Origin: Candidatus Aegiribacteria sp. MLS_C
GTDB taxonomy: Bacteria; Fermentibacterota; Fermentibacteria; Fermentibacterales; JCC-6
NCBI GenBank assembly: GCA_002030045.1
Contig: LQBI01000001.1
Coordinates: 186,001-250,000, forward strand
Direction: 5' to 3'
DNA: 64,000 nt
Part shown: in pieces, positions 3,089 through 10,493 of the stretch
Position numbering within the stretch: position 1 is the first letter of the stretch
Layout of the letters: every line of letters begins with the position of its first letter
Translations under genes and position numbers: made by a program
The notes under the pieces: generated by a model
What the model was told of the DNA's origin: nothing
Seen by the model: only the letters and a program-made list of their open reading frames with translations
Database searches by the model: none

Positions 3089-4417
3089 ATGCGGAAAGAC
3101 TGGATTGGCATTCCAGCCCTCGGGATTCTCCTTCTGCTTGCCTCTTTTGCCGCAGCTCAGGATGCCGTCGAGGAAATGACGCAGGATGCGGATCCCCGGC
3201 CCGGGGAGATGATGGAGGATACGGCGGGAGTAGAGGGTACCCAGCTCCAGCCGGCAGTGGAGGGAGTGCCCGAAGAGCCTGGTCCCGCCCTTGACGTTCC
3301 GGGAGCCATAACCGTCGAGGACAAGGACAACGATGCCGGGGACCAGCTGGTTGTCTGCTTCGAGCCCCCGGCGGACACATCCGGCGTCTTCGCCTACAAT
3401 GTCTACAGGCGCAAGGCGGGGGAGACGGGCGAGGTGAGCTGGAACCTGGTGAAGATCATCCCTGTTCTGGGACCCACCCTGTTCATCGACGGTTACGACC
3501 CGGAATATCCGATAGAGCCCGGCACCAGGTACGAGTACAGGGTAGCTTCCGTGAGCCTGGAGGGCGAGGAGTACTTCGGTGAGCCGCAGGTGGCACAGGC
3601 AGTTCCCGCCGGGGAACTCTACCATACCGGGAAGACAAAGGTCCTGATAGCCGGCGGGCTGTTCATCTTCCTCATCTTCTACTACTTCGGCAAGGCCCAG
3701 CGGGGCAGGCAGATGTACCTCAGACCCATTGCCGGCATAGAGGCCATCGACGAGGCCATAGGAAGGGCAACCGAGATGGGCAAGCCGGTCCTGTACGTGC
3801 CGGGTCTGTCCACTATCTCCGACGTGGCCACCATCGCAAGCCTCACCATTCTGGGAAGGGTGGCCAAGAAGGTCGCACAGTACCAGACGCCGCTAATGGT
3901 CCCCAACCGTGATCCAATTGTATACACAGTTGCCGACGAGGCCGTGAAGCAGGCCTATCTGGAAGCAGGAAGACCCGACGCCTTCGATCCCGATTCGGTA
4001 TTCTTCCTGACCGACAGCCAGTTCGCATTCGTTGCCGGTGTGAACGGTATAATGATGAGGGAGAAACCCGCCACCAACTTCTACCTTGGAATGTTCTGGG
4101 CTGAATCGCTGCTCCTGGCGGAAACCGGTTCCCTCACCGGGGCCATTCAGATAGCGGGGACCGACGCGGTCACCCAGCTGCCGTTCTTCATAACCACCTG
4201 TGACTACACACTGATTGGGGAGGAGCTGTACGCCGCCAGCGCCTACCTCGGCCGCGAACCCAAGCAGATAGGCGCGGTCAAGGGACAGGACGCGTGCAAG
4301 GGGATAATAATGGCGTTCATTACGATCGCTTTCGTTCTGTCCATCCTGGACATGGTCGCGGATACGGAGACCCTGGAATGGGTCAGGCGCATCGTGACCG
4401 TGCCCATTGTGGACTAG
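3089..4417 (+). CDS. membrane protein with Fn3-like N-terminal domain and conserved DUF6754-type domain (cluster gene 1)
   Basis: A 442-residue protein with a signal peptide (hydrophobic run ending SFAAAQ), an acidic linker (about 25-75), and a fibronectin-type-III-like domain (about 80-170, containing FAYNVYRRKAG and RYEYRVASV). A transmembrane helix (GLFIFLIFYYFG) is followed by a long, highly conserved cytoplasmic domain beginning RQMYLRPIAGIEAIDEAIGR and ending with a second hydrophobic segment. I recall a Pfam family of this kind (DUF6754) but cannot check the match. It opens a four-gene cluster of membrane proteins. A paralogue at 8869-10026 is nearly identical over the conserved domain. 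The ribosome site is AGGAAAGG before the ATG. Function unknown. Confidence 0.85.
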   Translation: MRKDWIGIPALGILLLLASFAAAQDAVEEMTQDADPRPGEMMEDTAGVEGTQLQPAVEGVPEEPGPALDVPGAITVEDKDNDAGDQLVVCFEPPADTSGVFAYNVYRRKAGETGEVSWNLVKIIPVLGPTLFIDGYDPEYPIEPGTRYEYRVASVSLEGEEYFGEPQVAQAVPAGELYHTGKTKVLIAGGLFIFLIFYYFGKAQRGRQMYLRPIAGIEAIDEAIGRATEMGKPVLYVPGLSTISDVATIASLTILGRVAKKVAQYQTPLMVPNRDPIVYTVADEAVKQAYLEAGRPDAFDPDSVFFLTDSQFAFVAGVNGIMMREKPATNFYLGMFWAESLLLAETGSLTGAIQIAGTDAVTQLPFFITTCDYTLIGEELYAASAYLGREPKQIGAVKGQDACKGIIMAFITIAFVLSILDMVADTETLEWVRRIVTVPIVD

Positions 4418-4440
4418 CCCACCGGAGAGGAGTCTGAACA

Positions 4441-5085
4441 GTGAAGAGGACTGTTCCGCTTATGATAGTGATGGTGGGCGGAATACTGATGATGGTTCAG
4501 TATTTCATTCCCCATCAGTACTCCCAGGCCGTCTTCGACAGCTATGTATCCTGGGCCCCCATCATAGCCGCCTTCGCCCTGATCCTGGGAGTAGGCAGCC
4601 TCACGAGGGTGCACGCCCACAAGATCAGGAGGAAGGCAGAGAACTGGCAGTACAGCTGGGCGGTGCTGATACCGCTCTACGCGATGCCGGTGCTGGCCCA
4701 CATATGGCCGGTTTCCCTCTCGGGAGGCATGGACGAACCCAGCATCTTCCACTTCCTTTTCATGCACATCCAGGTCCCCATTCAGGCCACCATGTTCAGC
4801 ATGCTCGCCTTCTACATCGCCAGTGCGGCGTTCAGGGCCTTCAGGGCCAAGTCTGCCCTGGCCACGGTGCTTCTCCTGGCCGCCGTGATAGTCATGCTCG
4901 GCCAGGTCCCGATAGGGGACCTCATCGCCAAATGGTTCCCCCAGATAGGACTGTGGATACTGAGGTATCCCAACCTGGCCGCCAAGCGAGCCATCATGCT
5001 GGGTGTCGGCTTCGGTATACTGGCCACCAACCTGAAGATAATCTTCGGCGTCGAGCGCAACTGGCTCGGCGGGGCCGGGAAGTAG
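4441..5085 (+). CDS. polytopic membrane protein (cluster gene 2)
   Basis: A 214-residue protein with about five or six predicted membrane helices (for example MIVMVGGILMMVQYF, IIAAFALILGVGSL, TVLLLAAVIVMLGQV), joined by short loops, one carrying the basic run HAHKIRRK. The start is a GTG at 4441 behind GGAGAGGAG. I do not recognise the family. It lies 23 nt after cluster gene 1 and directly abuts gene 3, so it is presumably a subunit of the same membrane assembly. Confidence 0.8.
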   Translation: MKRTVPLMIVMVGGILMMVQYFIPHQYSQAVFDSYVSWAPIIAAFALILGVGSLTRVHAHKIRRKAENWQYSWAVLIPLYAMPVLAHIWPVSLSGGMDEPSIFHFLFMHIQVPIQATMFSMLAFYIASAAFRAFRAKSALATVLLLAAVIVMLGQVPIGDLIAKWFPQIGLWILRYPNLAAKRAIMLGVGFGILATNLKIIFGVERNWLGGAGK

Positions 5086-5094
5086 GTGATCGGC

Positions 5095-6087
5095 ATGAAC
5101 ATCTGGGAGAGAATGCTCAACATCGACAGACGATGGATATTCCTTTCCATCGGCGTGGTCTCAATCATCCCCTTCCTTACCAAGATCGGTCTGCCCGTGA
5201 GCACCACCGAGGAGGTGGAGGACATCTTCACCTACATCGATTCGCTGGGCAAGGAGAATGCCATCTTCATCAGCTTCGACTTCGACCCGGGCACCCAGGC
5301 CGAGAACATGCCCATGGGAGTTGCGGTAATGCGCCATGCCTTCCACAATCACGTTCCGGTGTTCCTCACCGCCTACACACCTCTGGGACACGGAATGGCC
5401 GGAGGGGCGCTGGACTACGTGACACGACCTTCGACTCCGGGGTACTACACCAGTGTGGACTTCGACGAGTGGGCCGATATCAGGAATGCAGGGATCACAG
5501 ACAGGGATGAACTGGAAGCGGCATGGGAAGAGGCCGGCAATGTGCTTCCGGATGATTCCCATGGCTGGGTCTTCGAGGGCAGGGACTTCGTATACCTCGG
5601 TTATGCCCCGCTGTTCCATCTGGTGATCCTGGGAATGACCTCCTCCATCGAGACCCAGTACCCGTCCGACGCCCACGACAACCCGCTGTCCGAGATGCCC
5701 ATCCTGAGGGAGCACAAGAGCCTCAGGGAGGTGGACCTCGCTGTGACGACCTCGGGTTCCTCCGCATGCACCGCCTGGGTGATCTACGGCAGGGAGAAGA
5801 TAGGGCTGCCGGTGGCCTTCGGCGTGACAGCGGTCAGCGCCACCGACTACTACCCCTACATCCAGTCGGGCCAGATAATCGGCCAGATGGGAGGTCTTCG
5901 GGGTGCCGCCGAGTACGAGGTTCTCCTGCAGCAGAACGGCATCACCGAGACCACCGACAAGGCCTTCACCGGGATGGACGTCCAGTCCGCCGACCACCTG
6001 CTGATAATCTTCTTCATAATCATGGGCAACATCGCTTACTTCATGGGGGGATTCCACAGGAAGAAGCAGCTGAAGGGAGGGAGGTAG
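5095..6087 (+). CDS. membrane-anchored protein with large extracytoplasmic domain (cluster gene 3)
   Basis: About 330 residues. There is one N-terminal membrane helix (IFLSIGVVSIIPFLTKIG) and one at the C-terminus (LLIIFFIIMGNIAYFMGGF), with a soluble domain of roughly 270 residues between them. That domain contains FISFDFDPGTQAENMPMG, FLTAYTPLGHGMAGG and VTTSGSSACTAWV. The ATG at 5095 is preferred over GTG 5086 because AGGTGA lies 5 nt upstream. The two-helix topology with a folded insert suggests a sensing or scaffold subunit. I do not recognise the family, and a function would be guesswork. Confidence 0.8.
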   Translation: MNIWERMLNIDRRWIFLSIGVVSIIPFLTKIGLPVSTTEEVEDIFTYIDSLGKENAIFISFDFDPGTQAENMPMGVAVMRHAFHNHVPVFLTAYTPLGHGMAGGALDYVTRPSTPGYYTSVDFDEWADIRNAGITDRDELEAAWEEAGNVLPDDSHGWVFEGRDFVYLGYAPLFHLVILGMTSSIETQYPSDAHDNPLSEMPILREHKSLREVDLAVTTSGSSACTAWVIYGREKIGLPVAFGVTAVSATDYYPYIQSGQIIGQMGGLRGAAEYEVLLQQNGITETTDKAFTGMDVQSADHLLIIFFIIMGNIAYFMGGFHRKKQLKGGR

Positions 6088-6090
6088 GAA

Positions 6091-6720
6091 ATGTACGAGA
6101 TCATAGGCATCTGGGTCGGGGCCTTCTTCACCCTGGCCATCTATTCCTTCCTCTACAAGGAGAACCCCGTCTACCGTCTGGCCGAGCATCTGGTGGTGGG
6201 CATATCCCTGGGTTACACCATGGCGATAACCTACGATGTGGTGCTGAAGCCCAGGCTGATCGAACCACTCCTGGCCGGAGGCTCGTGGATCCTTCTTATC
6301 CCCGCATTGCTGGGGCTCCTCTACATAACCAGGTTCATTTCCAGCATAGCGTGGCTCTCAAGGTATCCCATCGCCTTCGTCCTCGGGACCGGCATGGGAG
6401 TCGGGTTCCCCCTCACCATGAAGAGCAACGTACTCAGGCAGCTTGAAGCCGCCATGATACCCTTCTACCAGGAGGGCATGCCCTGGCACATGGTCCTGGG
6501 CAACGTGGTCCTCGTCCTGGGAACGCTTGCGGCGCTCATCTACTTCTTCTTCTCCAAGCCGCACAAGGGTTTCTTCTTCGGGACCGGTTCCAGGATAGGT
6601 ATCTGGATCATCATGCTCGGGTTCGGTGCCACCTTCGGGTTCACCGTCATGGGCCGTATCAGCCTGCTCATTGGAAGGATACAGTACCTTCTCGGAGACT
6701 GGCTCCACCTCATAGAGTGA
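6091..6720 (+). CDS. polytopic membrane protein (cluster gene 4)
   Basis: A 209-residue protein with about six hydrophobic helices (IIGIWVGAFFTLAIYSF, LVVGISLGYTMAITY, ILLIPALLGLLYITRF, VLGNVVLVLGTLAALIYFFF, IIMLGFGATFGFTVMG). It begins 3 nt after gene 3, behind GGGAGG, and is followed by a strong GC-rich hairpin, so the cluster seems to end here. I do not recognise the family. The conserved order and tight spacing argue that genes 1-4 form one membrane complex. Confidence 0.8.
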   Translation: MYEIIGIWVGAFFTLAIYSFLYKENPVYRLAEHLVVGISLGYTMAITYDVVLKPRLIEPLLAGGSWILLIPALLGLLYITRFISSIAWLSRYPIAFVLGTGMGVGFPLTMKSNVLRQLEAAMIPFYQEGMPWHMVLGNVVLVLGTLAALIYFFFSKPHKGFFFGTGSRIGIWIIMLGFGATFGFTVMGRISLLIGRIQYLLGDWLHLIE

Positions 6721-7205: not shown

Positions 7206-8324
7206 ATGGAGGGTGCCATAACAGGGAGCAGGATAGCCCTCAACTGGATTGTCTTCAACACCTGGTCCACGGGAGCAGCCAGGAGGGCCTACGAGCTTCA
7301 CAGGAGGATGCCCGAGGACCTGGAATTCACAGCCTTCGTAACGCGTGGTTTCTCCCGCGAGTGGAGGCTGGAATGTCCGGGTATAAGATTCGTCGAGGTG
7401 TCCGGATCCCGTTCATTCCTGGGAAGGCTAAGGGAGGGTTCCGCATCCTACTGGAGTGGTCTGCTCAAGGATCAGGAATGCGGACTCTGGGTAACCGATA
7501 CGCTACCCGTTCCCTCCGGTCTTTCCGGGACAAGGACCTGCATCACCGTACATGACCTGAGGTTCCTGGCTTCGAGGAACTACCTGAGTCTTCAGAGATA
7601 CCTCCTCATGAAGCACTCCATGGGCAGGTCACTTGAACGGGCGGACGCGGTTGTGGCCGTATCCCAGTGGACGGCCCAGGTCCTTCTGGACAGGTATCCG
7701 GTCACTGCAGGCAAGCTGTCTGTGGTGGAGAACTCCGTGGACCCCGAACCCTTTCGCATTTCCCGGCCCGGAGGTTCTCCGGTCTCCAGACCCTACATAT
7801 TCTCGGTAGGCCACCTGGAAACAAGAAAGAACTTCGAGAGACTTGTGGAGGCTTTCGGGATCGTTTCCAGGATGTGGGACGGCAATCTGGTTCTTGTCGG
7901 AGGGGATCAGGGTTCTCTTCGCACTATACTGGAAAATGCTTTGCGTGTGGGGGTGTCTGACAGGCTAATGATAAGGCACGACCTGGATTTCGAGACTCTG
8001 GTCAGGTTCTACAGGAATGCCGAGTTAGTGGTCTGTCCTTCAAAGTACGAGGGTTTCGGGATTACCCTGCTGGAAGGTATGGCCTCAGGCAGGGCGGTGG
8101 CGGCGTCGGACATCCCTCCCCACAGAGAAGTTGCCGGGGAGGCGGCACTTTACTTCCATCCCGACGATACACCGGGTATGGCCGATGCCATGCTGAACCT
8201 TGCCAGGGACCGCTACCTCAGGGAATCCCTGGTCCAGAGAGGCGACATAAGGCTGGAGCGCTTCTCCTGGGAGCGTTCCGCACAGAAACTGGCTTCCCTT
8301 TACAGGGAACTTCTCGGGAGATGA
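7206..8324 (+). CDS. family 4 glycosyltransferase
   Basis: A GT-B glycosyltransferase of 372 residues, expected to transfer a sugar from a nucleotide-sugar donor to a polysaccharide or glycolipid at the inner membrane. The GT4 C-terminal domain is clear: IFSVGHLETRKNFERLVEAF, then LVVCPSKYEGFGITLLEGMA with the E-x7-E donor-binding motif, and the PHREVAGEAALYF region. The N-terminal half carries the acceptor domain (TCITVHDLRF, ADAVVAVSQWTAQVLL). The ATG at 7206 has no good ribosome site. A GGAGGG lies just inside the frame at 7208-7213, so the start is uncertain. It is followed after 1 nt by a GNAT gene. Confidence 0.88.
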   Translation: MEGAITGSRIALNWIVFNTWSTGAARRAYELHRRMPEDLEFTAFVTRGFSREWRLECPGIRFVEVSGSRSFLGRLREGSASYWSGLLKDQECGLWVTDTLPVPSGLSGTRTCITVHDLRFLASRNYLSLQRYLLMKHSMGRSLERADAVVAVSQWTAQVLLDRYPVTAGKLSVVENSVDPEPFRISRPGGSPVSRPYIFSVGHLETRKNFERLVEAFGIVSRMWDGNLVLVGGDQGSLRTILENALRVGVSDRLMIRHDLDFETLVRFYRNAELVVCPSKYEGFGITLLEGMASGRAVAASDIPPHREVAGEAALYFHPDDTPGMADAMLNLARDRYLRESLVQRGDIRLERFSWERSAQKLASLYRELLGR

Positions 8325-8325
8325 G

Positions 8326-8787
8326 ATGGATGAAGCGGAAGTGACCCTGAGAAGAATGGAGAAAGAGGACTACAGGGATCTCGTGGAGCTCTGGGAGTGT
8401 TTTTCAGGAAATACGCTGACCGGGGCTGACAGTCCCTCAGGCTTTGAAGCGTTCCTCGATACTAACGGTGAGTATTGTTTCGTGGCCGAGATGGAAGACC
8501 GCGCCGTTGGTACCGTAATGGCTGGCAACGACGCACGGCGGGGCTATGTCTACCATCTGGCCGTAGAGGAGGGCCTGCAGGGGCGTGGAATAGGCAGAAT
8601 GCTCATGGATGCATGCGAGGACGCGCTTAGAAATGACGGTATAGAGAAGGCTCACCTGTTCATCTACACCGACAACCCGGCCATCGGTTTCTACGAGAGG
8701 ACGGGATGGCACAGGAGGCATGATATAGCTGTCATGAGCAAGGTCCTCATAGGGGACAGGTACATGGGTACCAGGAGGGATGGCTGA
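8326..8787 (+). CDS. GNAT-family N-acetyltransferase
   Basis: A 153-residue GNAT protein that would transfer an acetyl group from acetyl-CoA to an amine. Motif A with the pyrophosphate-binding loop is complete (HLAVEEGLQGRGIGRMLMDA), followed by motif B-like LFIYTDNPAIGFYERTGWH. The substrate cannot be read from the sequence. It lies 1 nt after the glycosyltransferase gene, so a role in sugar or surface-polymer modification is possible. Confidence 0.85.
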   Translation: MDEAEVTLRRMEKEDYRDLVELWECFSGNTLTGADSPSGFEAFLDTNGEYCFVAEMEDRAVGTVMAGNDARRGYVYHLAVEEGLQGRGIGRMLMDACEDALRNDGIEKAHLFIYTDNPAIGFYERTGWHRRHDIAVMSKVLIGDRYMGTRRDG

Positions 8788-8868: not shown

Positions 8869-10026
8869 ATGATCACCGCATTGATTGCCGCTGGGGTAGT
8901 GCTCGTTCAGCCAATACAGGTCAGCGATATCCAGGATAGACCGAACGACGCGGGTGACGGCCTACTGGTGTACCTGCAGATGCCGGAGGTAACCGACGAG
9001 ATACTGTCCGTCGAGATCTACAGGAGGTCAGTGCAGGAACCCGAGTGCAACTGGCAGCTGGTCATGGTCGAGATGATGCCGGTATGGGATCCCTTTCTCG
9101 TTGACGGATATGACCCTGACTATCCCGTGATCCCCGGTGTTAAGTACGAGTATCTACCTATGACCCTGACCCTGTCAGGTGATACCCTCCCCGGAGAGGT
9201 GGTTGTCTCACCTGTGGTTCCCCGCGGTGAGTTCATCAACACGGACGAGGTATCGGTCCTGGCCGCCAGCGTGGTGTTCATTTTCCTCATCTTCTACTAC
9301 TTCGGTAAGGCACAGCGGGGAAGGGAGATGTACCTGCGGCCCATAGCCGGGATCGAAGCCATAGACGAGGCCATAGGTAGGGCCACGGAGATGGGCAAGG
9401 CCATTCTATACGTACCGGGTCTCTCGACGATCTCTGATGTAGCTACCATAGCAAGTCTTACCATACTTGGCAGGGTCGCCAGGAAGGTTGCAGAGTATGG
9501 AACGGACCTCAGGGTCCCCAACTGCGATCCAATTGTCTACACAGTGGCAACGGAATCTGTGAAGCAGGCCTATCTGGAAGCTGGCAGACCCGACGCCTAC
9601 AGCGATGAATCAGTGTACTTCATCACCGACAGCCAGTTCGCATACGTAGCCAGTGTGAATGGGATGATGATGCGTGAGAGACCCGCTACTAACTTCTATC
9701 TGGGTATGTTCTGGGCTGAATCCCTCCTCCTGGCGGAGACCGGTTCGCTCTCCGGGGCGATACAGATCGCCGGAACGGATGCGGTGACCCAGCTCCCTTT
9801 CTTCATCACCACATGTGATTACACGCTCATCGGTGAAGAGCTTTACGCGGCCAGCGCCTATCTGGGCAGGGAGCCGAAGCAGCTGGGTGCTGTCAAAGGC
9901 CAGGACGCCTGCAAGGCGATCGTGATGGTCCTCATCCTGCTAGGGATCCTCTTCAGCATCCTGCAAATGATAACGGGAAACGAAAGCTTCATGTTCCTGA
10001 AGGACATGATGGTCACCGGGAACTGA
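8869..10026 (+). CDS. paralogue of membrane-cluster gene 1 (DUF6754-type domain)
   Basis: A 385-residue protein whose C-terminal two thirds (from IFLIFYYFGKAQRGREMYL onward) are almost identical in amino acids to the protein at 3089-4417, while the N-terminal Fn3-like domain has diverged strongly. The acidic linker is missing and the N-terminal hydrophobic segment is short. At the DNA level many third positions differ, so the duplication is old and the domain is under strong purifying selection. Here it stands alone, without copies of cluster genes 2-4. AGGA precedes the ATG, and CATAAT about 50 nt upstream may be a -10 element. Function unknown. Confidence 0.82.
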   Translation: MITALIAAGVVLVQPIQVSDIQDRPNDAGDGLLVYLQMPEVTDEILSVEIYRRSVQEPECNWQLVMVEMMPVWDPFLVDGYDPDYPVIPGVKYEYLPMTLTLSGDTLPGEVVVSPVVPRGEFINTDEVSVLAASVVFIFLIFYYFGKAQRGREMYLRPIAGIEAIDEAIGRATEMGKAILYVPGLSTISDVATIASLTILGRVARKVAEYGTDLRVPNCDPIVYTVATESVKQAYLEAGRPDAYSDESVYFITDSQFAYVASVNGMMMRERPATNFYLGMFWAESLLLAETGSLSGAIQIAGTDAVTQLPFFITTCDYTLIGEELYAASAYLGREPKQLGAVKGQDACKAIVMVLILLGILFSILQMITGNESFMFLKDMMVTGN

Positions 10027-10028
10027 TC

Positions 10029-10493
10029 TTGCCAGACCTGCTTGTGCCTCTTTACAGCCTTTCTTCCCTGCCGGTGCTCGAGGGCTTCTGGGTGGGCCGG
10101 CCGCTTCCGCATCAGTCGGAGAAGGTTCTTGACTTCATAGGGGAGACCTTCGGAAGCTCCTGGAAAGCGGAGGCGTCCTCTGCCTTTGGTTCGGTCCCTC
10201 CACGGATCAAGGTGGCGGTGGACGAAACCGGTAGGCTGCTAGGCTTCTGCTGCTGGGACTGCACCTCGCTGGGGTTCCTGGGACCGATTGGCGTGACGGA
10301 AGCAGCCAGGGGCAGGGGTATAGGGAAGGCCCTGGTCCTCTCGGTGCTGTACAGCATGAGGGAGGCCGGTTACGCCTACGCCGTCATAGGTGGAGCCGGT
10401 CCGGTGGACTTCTTTCGGAGTATCTGCGATGCCAGAGTCATCGAGGGCAGCGATCCCGGCATCTACGGCAACCCCATTCAGGGACGGACCTGA
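10029..10493 (+). CDS. GNAT-family acetyltransferase, C-terminus altered by an inverted-repeat element
   Basis: A 154-residue protein with the GNAT acetyl-CoA loop (GVTEAARGRGIGKALVLSVL) and a following strand AYAVIGGAGPVDFF. The start is a TTG at 10029, two nt after the preceding stop. A GTG at 10044 is an alternative. The last residues (GRT) and the TGA stop are supplied by the left inverted repeat of the element at 10480-10619, so the original C-terminus was probably different or longer. The substrate is unknown. Motif A is intact, so activity is possible. Confidence 0.7.
   Translation: MPDLLVPLYSLSSLPVLEGFWVGRPLPHQSEKVLDFIGETFGSSWKAEASSAFGSVPPRIKVAVDETGRLLGFCCWDCTSLGFLGPIGVTEAARGRGIGKALVLSVLYSMREAGYAYAVIGGAGPVDFFRSICDARVIEGSDPGIYGNPIQGRT

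Follow-up and report, generated by a model that had tools for sequence, protein, structure and literature searches.

Old duplication and probable domain-limited gene conversion in clustered and solitary DUF6754 membrane proteins of Fermentibacterota

INTRODUCTION

The window analyzed here, a stretch of 64,000 nucleotides on contig C1 of a Fermentibacterota genome (G000), carries two genes whose products are nearly identical over one long segment and much less alike outside it. One of them, A1, heads a four-gene membrane cluster, and the other, B, stands apart. The question raised by this locus is how part of two paralogues came to stay so similar, whether through selection, through exchange of DNA between the copies, or both, and what the shared part may be for. 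An initial annotation had read B as an ancient stand-alone paralogue, with a core frozen by purifying selection and a swapped outer module. Here, we examined this reading using domain searches, structure models, phylogenies and comparisons with related genomes.

RESULTS

Gene content of the window and domain organization of A1 and B

Both open reading frames (ORFs) named in the initial annotation are present. A1 belongs to the cluster A1-A2-A3-A4 (3089-6720), and B lies in a tight run on one strand, in the order GT4-GNAT1-B-GNAT2. The features are as follows.

3089..4417, + strand: A1, cluster gene 1, a DUF6754 paralogue of 442 aa (ORF, Pfam)
3640..4313, + strand: homogenised core of A1 (blastn)
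4441..5085, + strand: A2, multi-pass membrane partner with no Pfam family at E<=0.01 (ORF, hydrophobic segments, conserved order)
5086..6087, + strand: A3, membrane protein whose alpha/beta domain is flanked by a single hydrophobic helix on either side (ORF, hydrophobic segments, model)
6091..6720, + strand: A4, multi-pass membrane partner (ORF, hydrophobic segments, conserved order)
7206..8324, + strand: GT4, glycosyltransferase heading the B run (ORF, Pfam, neighbour comparison)
8326..8787, + strand: GNAT1, acetyltransferase adjoining B (ORF, Pfam, neighbour comparison)
8869..10026, + strand: B, solitary DUF6754 protein of 385 aa with a signal/TM helix, FN3-like outer domain, TM helix, DUF6754 core and C-terminal TM helix (ORF, PF20539 at E 1.4e-115, hydrophobic segments, model)
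8917..9192, + strand: predicted FN3-like outer domain of B, residues 17-108 (AlphaFold2, Foldseek, separate descent)
9255..9928, + strand: homogenised core of B at the DNA level, 80% identical to the A1 core (blastn; lineage statistic positive only over residues 126-350)
10029..10493, + strand: GNAT2, acetyltransferase (ORF, Pfam, neighbour comparison)

Both proteins are full-length matches to PF20539 (DUF6754) above its cut-off (gathering score, 27 bits). The Pfam search gave E 5.5e-114 for A1 (380.1 bits, profile positions 3-252 of 257) and the E-value listed above for B (385.3 bits, positions 3-253 of 257), and the likeness of A1 to B is therefore not due to chance. No NCBIfam family was found for A1-A4 or B, and the PADLOC anti-phage defence models gave no family at E<=0.01 for these proteins. 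GNAT2 begins 2 bases past the end of B, and a neighbour survey of relatives revealed a GNAT gene adjoining B in other genera as well. The GT4 slot (window 7206-8324) holds genes of 27-58% identity among relatives at the same place, as if repeatedly replaced. A promoter scan found no promoter-like + strand site just upstream of B, a weak result because the number of sites was about that of shuffled sequence.

By hydropathy, each protein has one hydrophobic segment at its start, one at the boundary of head and core, and one near its end. Since positive residues come after the middle helix, we infer that the head lies outside the cell and DUF6754 inside. The AlphaFold2 model of B contains a block with pLDDT ~77-92 over residues 11-120, and FN3 domains were among the Foldseek matches of the outer domain to solved structures (E 1.5e-4 to 1e-3, TM up to 0.83 on the target); the outer domain is thus predicted to adopt an FN3-type beta-sandwich fold, a structural test made on the B head. 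The core of B was modelled poorly (mean pLDDT 64.1, pTM 0.39, 23-row alignment), and we therefore claim no fold for DUF6754. The A1/B alignment found no relative among solved structures at E<=1. For A3, the AlphaFold2 model (pLDDT 70.5, pTM 0.71) had no Foldseek match at E<=0.001, and profile comparison detected no relation between A3 and DUF6754.

A near-identical core bounded at both ends

Near-identity between A1 and B spans residues 131-352 of B. Residues 135-350 are 88.0% identical (190/216), with dN 0.075 and dS 1.214 (NG86), and third positions differ at 97 of these 216 codons, in agreement with the many third-position differences first reported. The outer part (B residues 1-130) is 40.6% identical (52/128; dN 0.566, dS 1.468, NG86). 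The last two thirds of the proteins had been called almost identical, which is too broad: residues 131-385 are 78.4% identical overall and only 8 of the last 35 residues match (23%), so the block is bounded at both ends. Likewise, "dissimilar" is too strong a word for the outer domains, which are alignable homologues.

For A1 and B, omega is ~0.06 in the core vs ~0.39 outside it; because dS is near saturation and other estimators were unstable, only this contrast between core and outer part is trusted. Across the A and B proteins of two genera, 156 of the 200 positions in residues 151-350 have one common majority residue. The proposal that purifying selection froze the core is therefore borne out as to the strength of selection, which is, however, not the sole cause, as gene conversion also contributed (see below).

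Distribution of B and descent of the outer domains

DUF6754 was found in all 42 Fermentibacterota genomes searched, most of which had 2-4 matches. Genes were labelled from their neighbours, A beside A2 or PGDH and B beside GNAT genes; the B labels rest on synteny but were assigned once the first core tree was known. The protein set retained 88 of 119 sequences after removal of those below 330 aa and of those whose final 200 residues duplicated an earlier row. B is present in 30 of the 36 genomes of the window's family, and none was found in the two other families of the phylum (six genomes). The survey that had been proposed as a check recovered one clustered and one solitary copy in most family genomes. 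Where A and B share a contig, they are on one strand and separated by ~5-16 kb. All genomes showing B but no A1 were 66-79% complete (G018, G020, G031 and G038, a contig of G020 ending in A4), and among genomes listed as at least 90% complete none had B without A.

The family genomes outside the B count comprise four with the GNAT1-GNAT2 site but no B (G008, G013, G016 and G021), one that showed C1 only (G019; C1 is described below), and one with a fragment left unclassified (G030:C337). In the first four (L072 in G008, L073 in G021, L100 in G016 and L071 in G013), GNAT1 and GNAT2 are directly adjacent, with a gap of 97-102 bases or an overlap of a few bases, apparently reflecting clean loss of B. 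As B is gone from four genomes in which the site is intact, it is dispensable. At L069 (G026), the genes for B, the MutL fusion, A4, TktC and GNAT2 are each broken across two reading frames, apparently through errors in assembly or in bases and not through biology.

The outer domains resolve A and B cleanly. In DNA trees, 23 B rows stand on one side of a branch and 31 A rows on the other, with support of 98.7 (all positions) and 99.0 (positions 1+2). The protein tree has one change for A and one for B (support 93), the long-branched L020 (G041) being drawn beside A owing to the midpoint root. The placement of all B outer domains on one branch points to a single old duplication, as the initial annotation had supposed, and the separate branches of the A and B heads indicate that each was inherited with its own gene. 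This separate inheritance contradicts a swapped outer module.

Core descent conflicts with outer-domain descent

In core trees built from protein and from DNA, A and B intermingle by lineage, and the core DNA tree contains six A/B changes, five of which are forced by starred branches. A single B clade is rejected by core DNA (AU p 8.2e-8) and by core positions 1+2 (p 8.4e-4; p 1.1e-3 without G041) and is not rejected at 5% by core protein (AU p 0.088; 0.077 without G041), these core p values being somewhat favourable because the labels were set after the first core tree. The core third-position tree also disfavours one B clade (p 8.65e-5) but was set aside as evidence, as outer-domain third positions mix A and B too (five changes; one B clade not rejected, p 0.28) and third-position trees therefore partly reflect genome composition or saturation.

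Same-genome pairs were compared in the 18 genomes, of the 30 with B, that had both proteins in the kept set. Core identity between A and B of the same genome is 0.891 vs 0.845 (A-A) and 0.839 (B-B) between genera. For the outer domain, the A-B values are 0.352 in the same genome and 0.334 across genera. At the protein level, we also computed a lineage-minus-orthology statistic, which sets within-genus A-B likeness against between-genus orthologue likeness in nine g1 and seven g3 genomes. It is positive over residues 126-350 (mean 0.037, 95% CI 0.012 to 0.064) and negative elsewhere (-0.061 for residues 1-125 and -0.183 for residues 351-385).

Conversion tracts and an excess of shared codons

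At the codon level, 150 of 193 shared-residue codons of the A/B core are identical in G041 vs 106.8 expected (z 9.9); uninterrupted identity extends over 62 bases in one stretch and 53 in another, and the signal is confined to about residues 161-345. Three fragmentary genomes (G009, G025 and G040) were analyzed apart from the 18 pairs. Over the initial 70 codons of the comparison, at the core end, 64/65 shared-residue codons are identical in G040 and 62/66 in G009, followed in each by an abrupt drop; these tracts lie at contig ends, and breaks are expected where an assembler meets near-identical copies. The G025 pair (81.5% over 222 bases) had no recent tract. The segments in G041, G009 and G040 are recent conversion tracts, limited to the core and stopping at its end. 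Recent gene conversion, which the initial annotation had named as evidence against its own reading, is thus seen in these three genomes; deeper exchange is indicated by the tree conflict, and the signal is weaker in the window pair.

For the window pair, 102 of 187 shared-residue codons in the core are identical vs 83.3 expected (z 3.7; 0/1000 shuffles). The outer domain of the same pair gives z -0.1, and window B against 17 other B genes gives z -1.6 to 2.0. Seven of the 18 same-genome A-B pairs reach z 3.3. Among the controls, the outer domains of the 18 genomes range from z -1.4 to 2.2, A or B against C1 in 14 genomes yielded one of 28 values of at least 3.3 (in G015), and A-C1 in the window genome has z 2.2; A-B comparisons reached at least 3.3 in 1/192 cases across genera and in 21/114 across genomes of one genus. 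G015 has an A-B z of 4.2, but its controls are also high (B-C1 3.6, A-C1 2.7, outer domain 2.2), and we therefore discount it and its near kin G023 and G024; the excess in G015, and perhaps in G023 and G024, may be partly a codon-usage effect. Taken together, the tree conflict and the tracts indicate that the core was homogenised by recurrent gene conversion in addition to selection.

Partner genes and related clusters

Genes resembling A2, A3 and A4 occur twice as a set in the G000 genome, next to A1 and next to C1, the third DUF6754 gene of G000, which belongs to another complete cluster on contig C35. No third partner set was found in this genome, and B is therefore without partners of its own. 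The four-gene DUF6754 module (gene 1 plus three membrane genes of A2-A4 type) accordingly occurs at A1 and C1 and not at B. That B has no partner genes, as first stated, thus holds for membrane partners and overlooks the GT4-GNAT1-B-GNAT2 run.

Core identity to C1 is 0.559 for both A1 and B. More broadly, paralogues with their own partners have core identities of 46-71%, vs 87-92% for A-B. In three Zixibacteria genomes, all 16 DUF6754 genes lie in four-gene sets (two of them truncated within the fourth gene where the contig stops), and two of these genomes have three sets in tandem. Core identities within a genome are 0.46-0.71 there (40 pairs), even in tandem, and the nearest relative of 15/16 copies is in another genome (one tie). 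Since tandem cores were not homogenised, chromosomal closeness is insufficient for homogenisation, although the divergence of these sets may predate their present arrangement. L126 (G044), L127 (G042) and L128 (G043) each carry complete DUF6754 sets in tandem, two or three per array. Some single Zixibacteria sets have a short gene 1 (269-304 aa), probably without the outer head.

The genes directly upstream of C1 encode a MutL-family protein (PF13941, E 7.3e-125) and a protein with a weak biotinyl/lipoyl match (E 0.066). At this locus (L055, 6012-12440 of G000:C35) the order is MutL-family gene, weak biotinyl/lipoyl protein, C1-C4, TonB-type receptor and ExbB-like gene, with glycine cleavage genes upstream; it recurs in many genomes of the phylum, with insertions in g3. 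In the g3 genomes that have A4 and B on one contig (G026, G028, G029, G032 and G033) and in G039, a gene for a MutL-type fusion separates the two. In G000, a 949-aa fusion of a MutL-type domain and a biotinyl/lipoyl-like partner is encoded at L115 (7322-10171 of G000:C32), with no DUF6754 gene nearby. We take the MutL-type protein to be an ASKHA-type ATPase. As a lead, its repeated genomic link to DUF6754 clusters, in the company of a biotinyl/lipoyl-like protein, would fit an envelope machine driven by ATP.

DISCUSSION

Our preferred explanation begins with an ancestral module in which gene 1, with an FN3-like outer head and a DUF6754 core, would have been accompanied by the membrane partners A2-A4. 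A single old duplication of gene 1 would have given rise to A1 and B, leaving B without partners, and the two heads would since have been inherited separately. The segment of B from about residue 126 to 350, which covers the TM helix after the head, DUF6754 and the run-up to the last TM helix, would have been copied repeatedly between A1 and B by gene conversion, with strong purifying selection acting on the exchanged segment at the same time. For this part of the explanation (duplication, separate heads and recurrent core conversion under purifying selection), the sequences make a strong case, and we regard it as very likely. As to function, both proteins would dock through the core onto the single A2-A3-A4 set, B serving as an alternative subunit 1 that would equip the complex with another outer head and whose separate gene run would place its expression in a different context. 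The absence of a third partner set and the drift of partner-owning copies make docking onto the same A2-A4 the simplest inference. Plugging of B into the complex encoded at 3.1-6.7 kb, the role first suggested for it, is thus kept as the best functional reading, and we give shared docking with B as alternative subunit 1 an even chance of being right. The explanation as a whole, history and function together, we consider reasonably probable.

Purifying selection after an old duplication, without any exchange of DNA, would account for the low core omega and near-saturated third positions of the window pair, for the majority residues common to A and B in two genera, and for a protein AU test that leaves one B clade unrejected. 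It is contradicted by the recent codon-level identity in G041, G009 and G040, by core DNA trees that reject one B clade, and by same-genome core identity exceeding that of between-genus orthologues, so we consider it improbable. Were gene 1 instead duplicated separately in each genus, with the heads exchanged afterwards, the core trees taken alone would be satisfied, but the single branch holding all B outer domains and the same GNAT genes beside B in several genera make such a history extremely improbable. It is also very improbable that B is the decaying remnant of a lost third cluster. Its absence from four genomes with an intact locus and from the six genomes of other families would fit decay, but B persists in five sixths of the family genomes, its core is strongly constrained, and the window copy is full-length with all hydrophobic segments present.

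A more serious alternative, though still an unlikely one, is that B has its own job apart from A2-A4, for example with the two GNATs or as a homo-oligomer, and that conversion is incidental to closeness and similarity. The GNAT genes beside B in other genera, the 2-base spacing to GNAT2 and the short A-B distances agree with this, and proximity alone could favour conversion between A and B. Speaking against it, the GNAT genes persist next to each other where B has been lost (G008, G013, G016 and G021), closely spaced full clusters in Zixibacteria remain unhomogenised, and identical core residues have been retained in both copies. We therefore favour the reading in which A1 and B share A2-A4, at the strength given above.

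Long-lasting recurrent concerted evolution in prokaryotes has been described for 26 genes, 22 of them in stable protein complexes, in the portions of PMC6053082 available to us, where it is characterized as rare. As in those cases, A1 and B are repeatedly closer to each other than between-genus orthologues are, at synonymous and, less clearly, at amino-acid sites. Unlike in those cases, as far as these portions describe them, only the core is homogenised, and the head and C-terminal tail keep their own descent; the gene also belongs to an uncharacterised DUF, a term absent from the text consulted. A second parallel is provided by RF1-RF2, for which the accessible part of PMC4530459 reports two cases of gene conversion restricted to domain 3, which carries the common function. 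There too, conversion is confined to the common-function domain and the part conferring specificity stays distinct. The A1/B exchange differs from RF1-RF2, as that part presents it, in recurring in several genera of one family and in involving a membrane protein whose partners are encoded beside one copy only. Our literature search returned no paper naming DUF6754, PF20539 being a family without a described function, and no paper on Fermentibacterota with gene conversion. The A1/B case joins long-lasting concerted evolution with domain-limited conversion in an uncharacterised membrane protein, and given the rarity noted in PMC6053082, as far as its text was available, a domain-limited case is a useful example.

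In the A1/B pair, two reasons why a domain may look "frozen", selection and gene conversion, can be told apart inside a single protein and with sharp borders. Copying of a common core between A1 and B suggests that both serve the same membrane machine. Tentatively, one may picture a hitherto undescribed envelope machine present throughout the phylum, composed of a DUF6754 subunit 1, three membrane partners, a MutL-type ASKHA ATPase and a biotinyl/lipoyl-like protein, which would accept interchangeable first subunits with different FN3 heads; conversion limited to the docking core would then have allowed the solitary and the clustered form to stand in for each other for as long as the family has existed. 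This picture is possible, though doubtful at present. By its borders, the exchanged segment would delimit the part that has to remain interchangeable, and evolution itself thereby indicates where docking in an uncharacterised membrane complex would take place; the DUF6754 subunit of this complex occurs in 42/42 Fermentibacterota genomes searched and in three Zixibacteria genomes.
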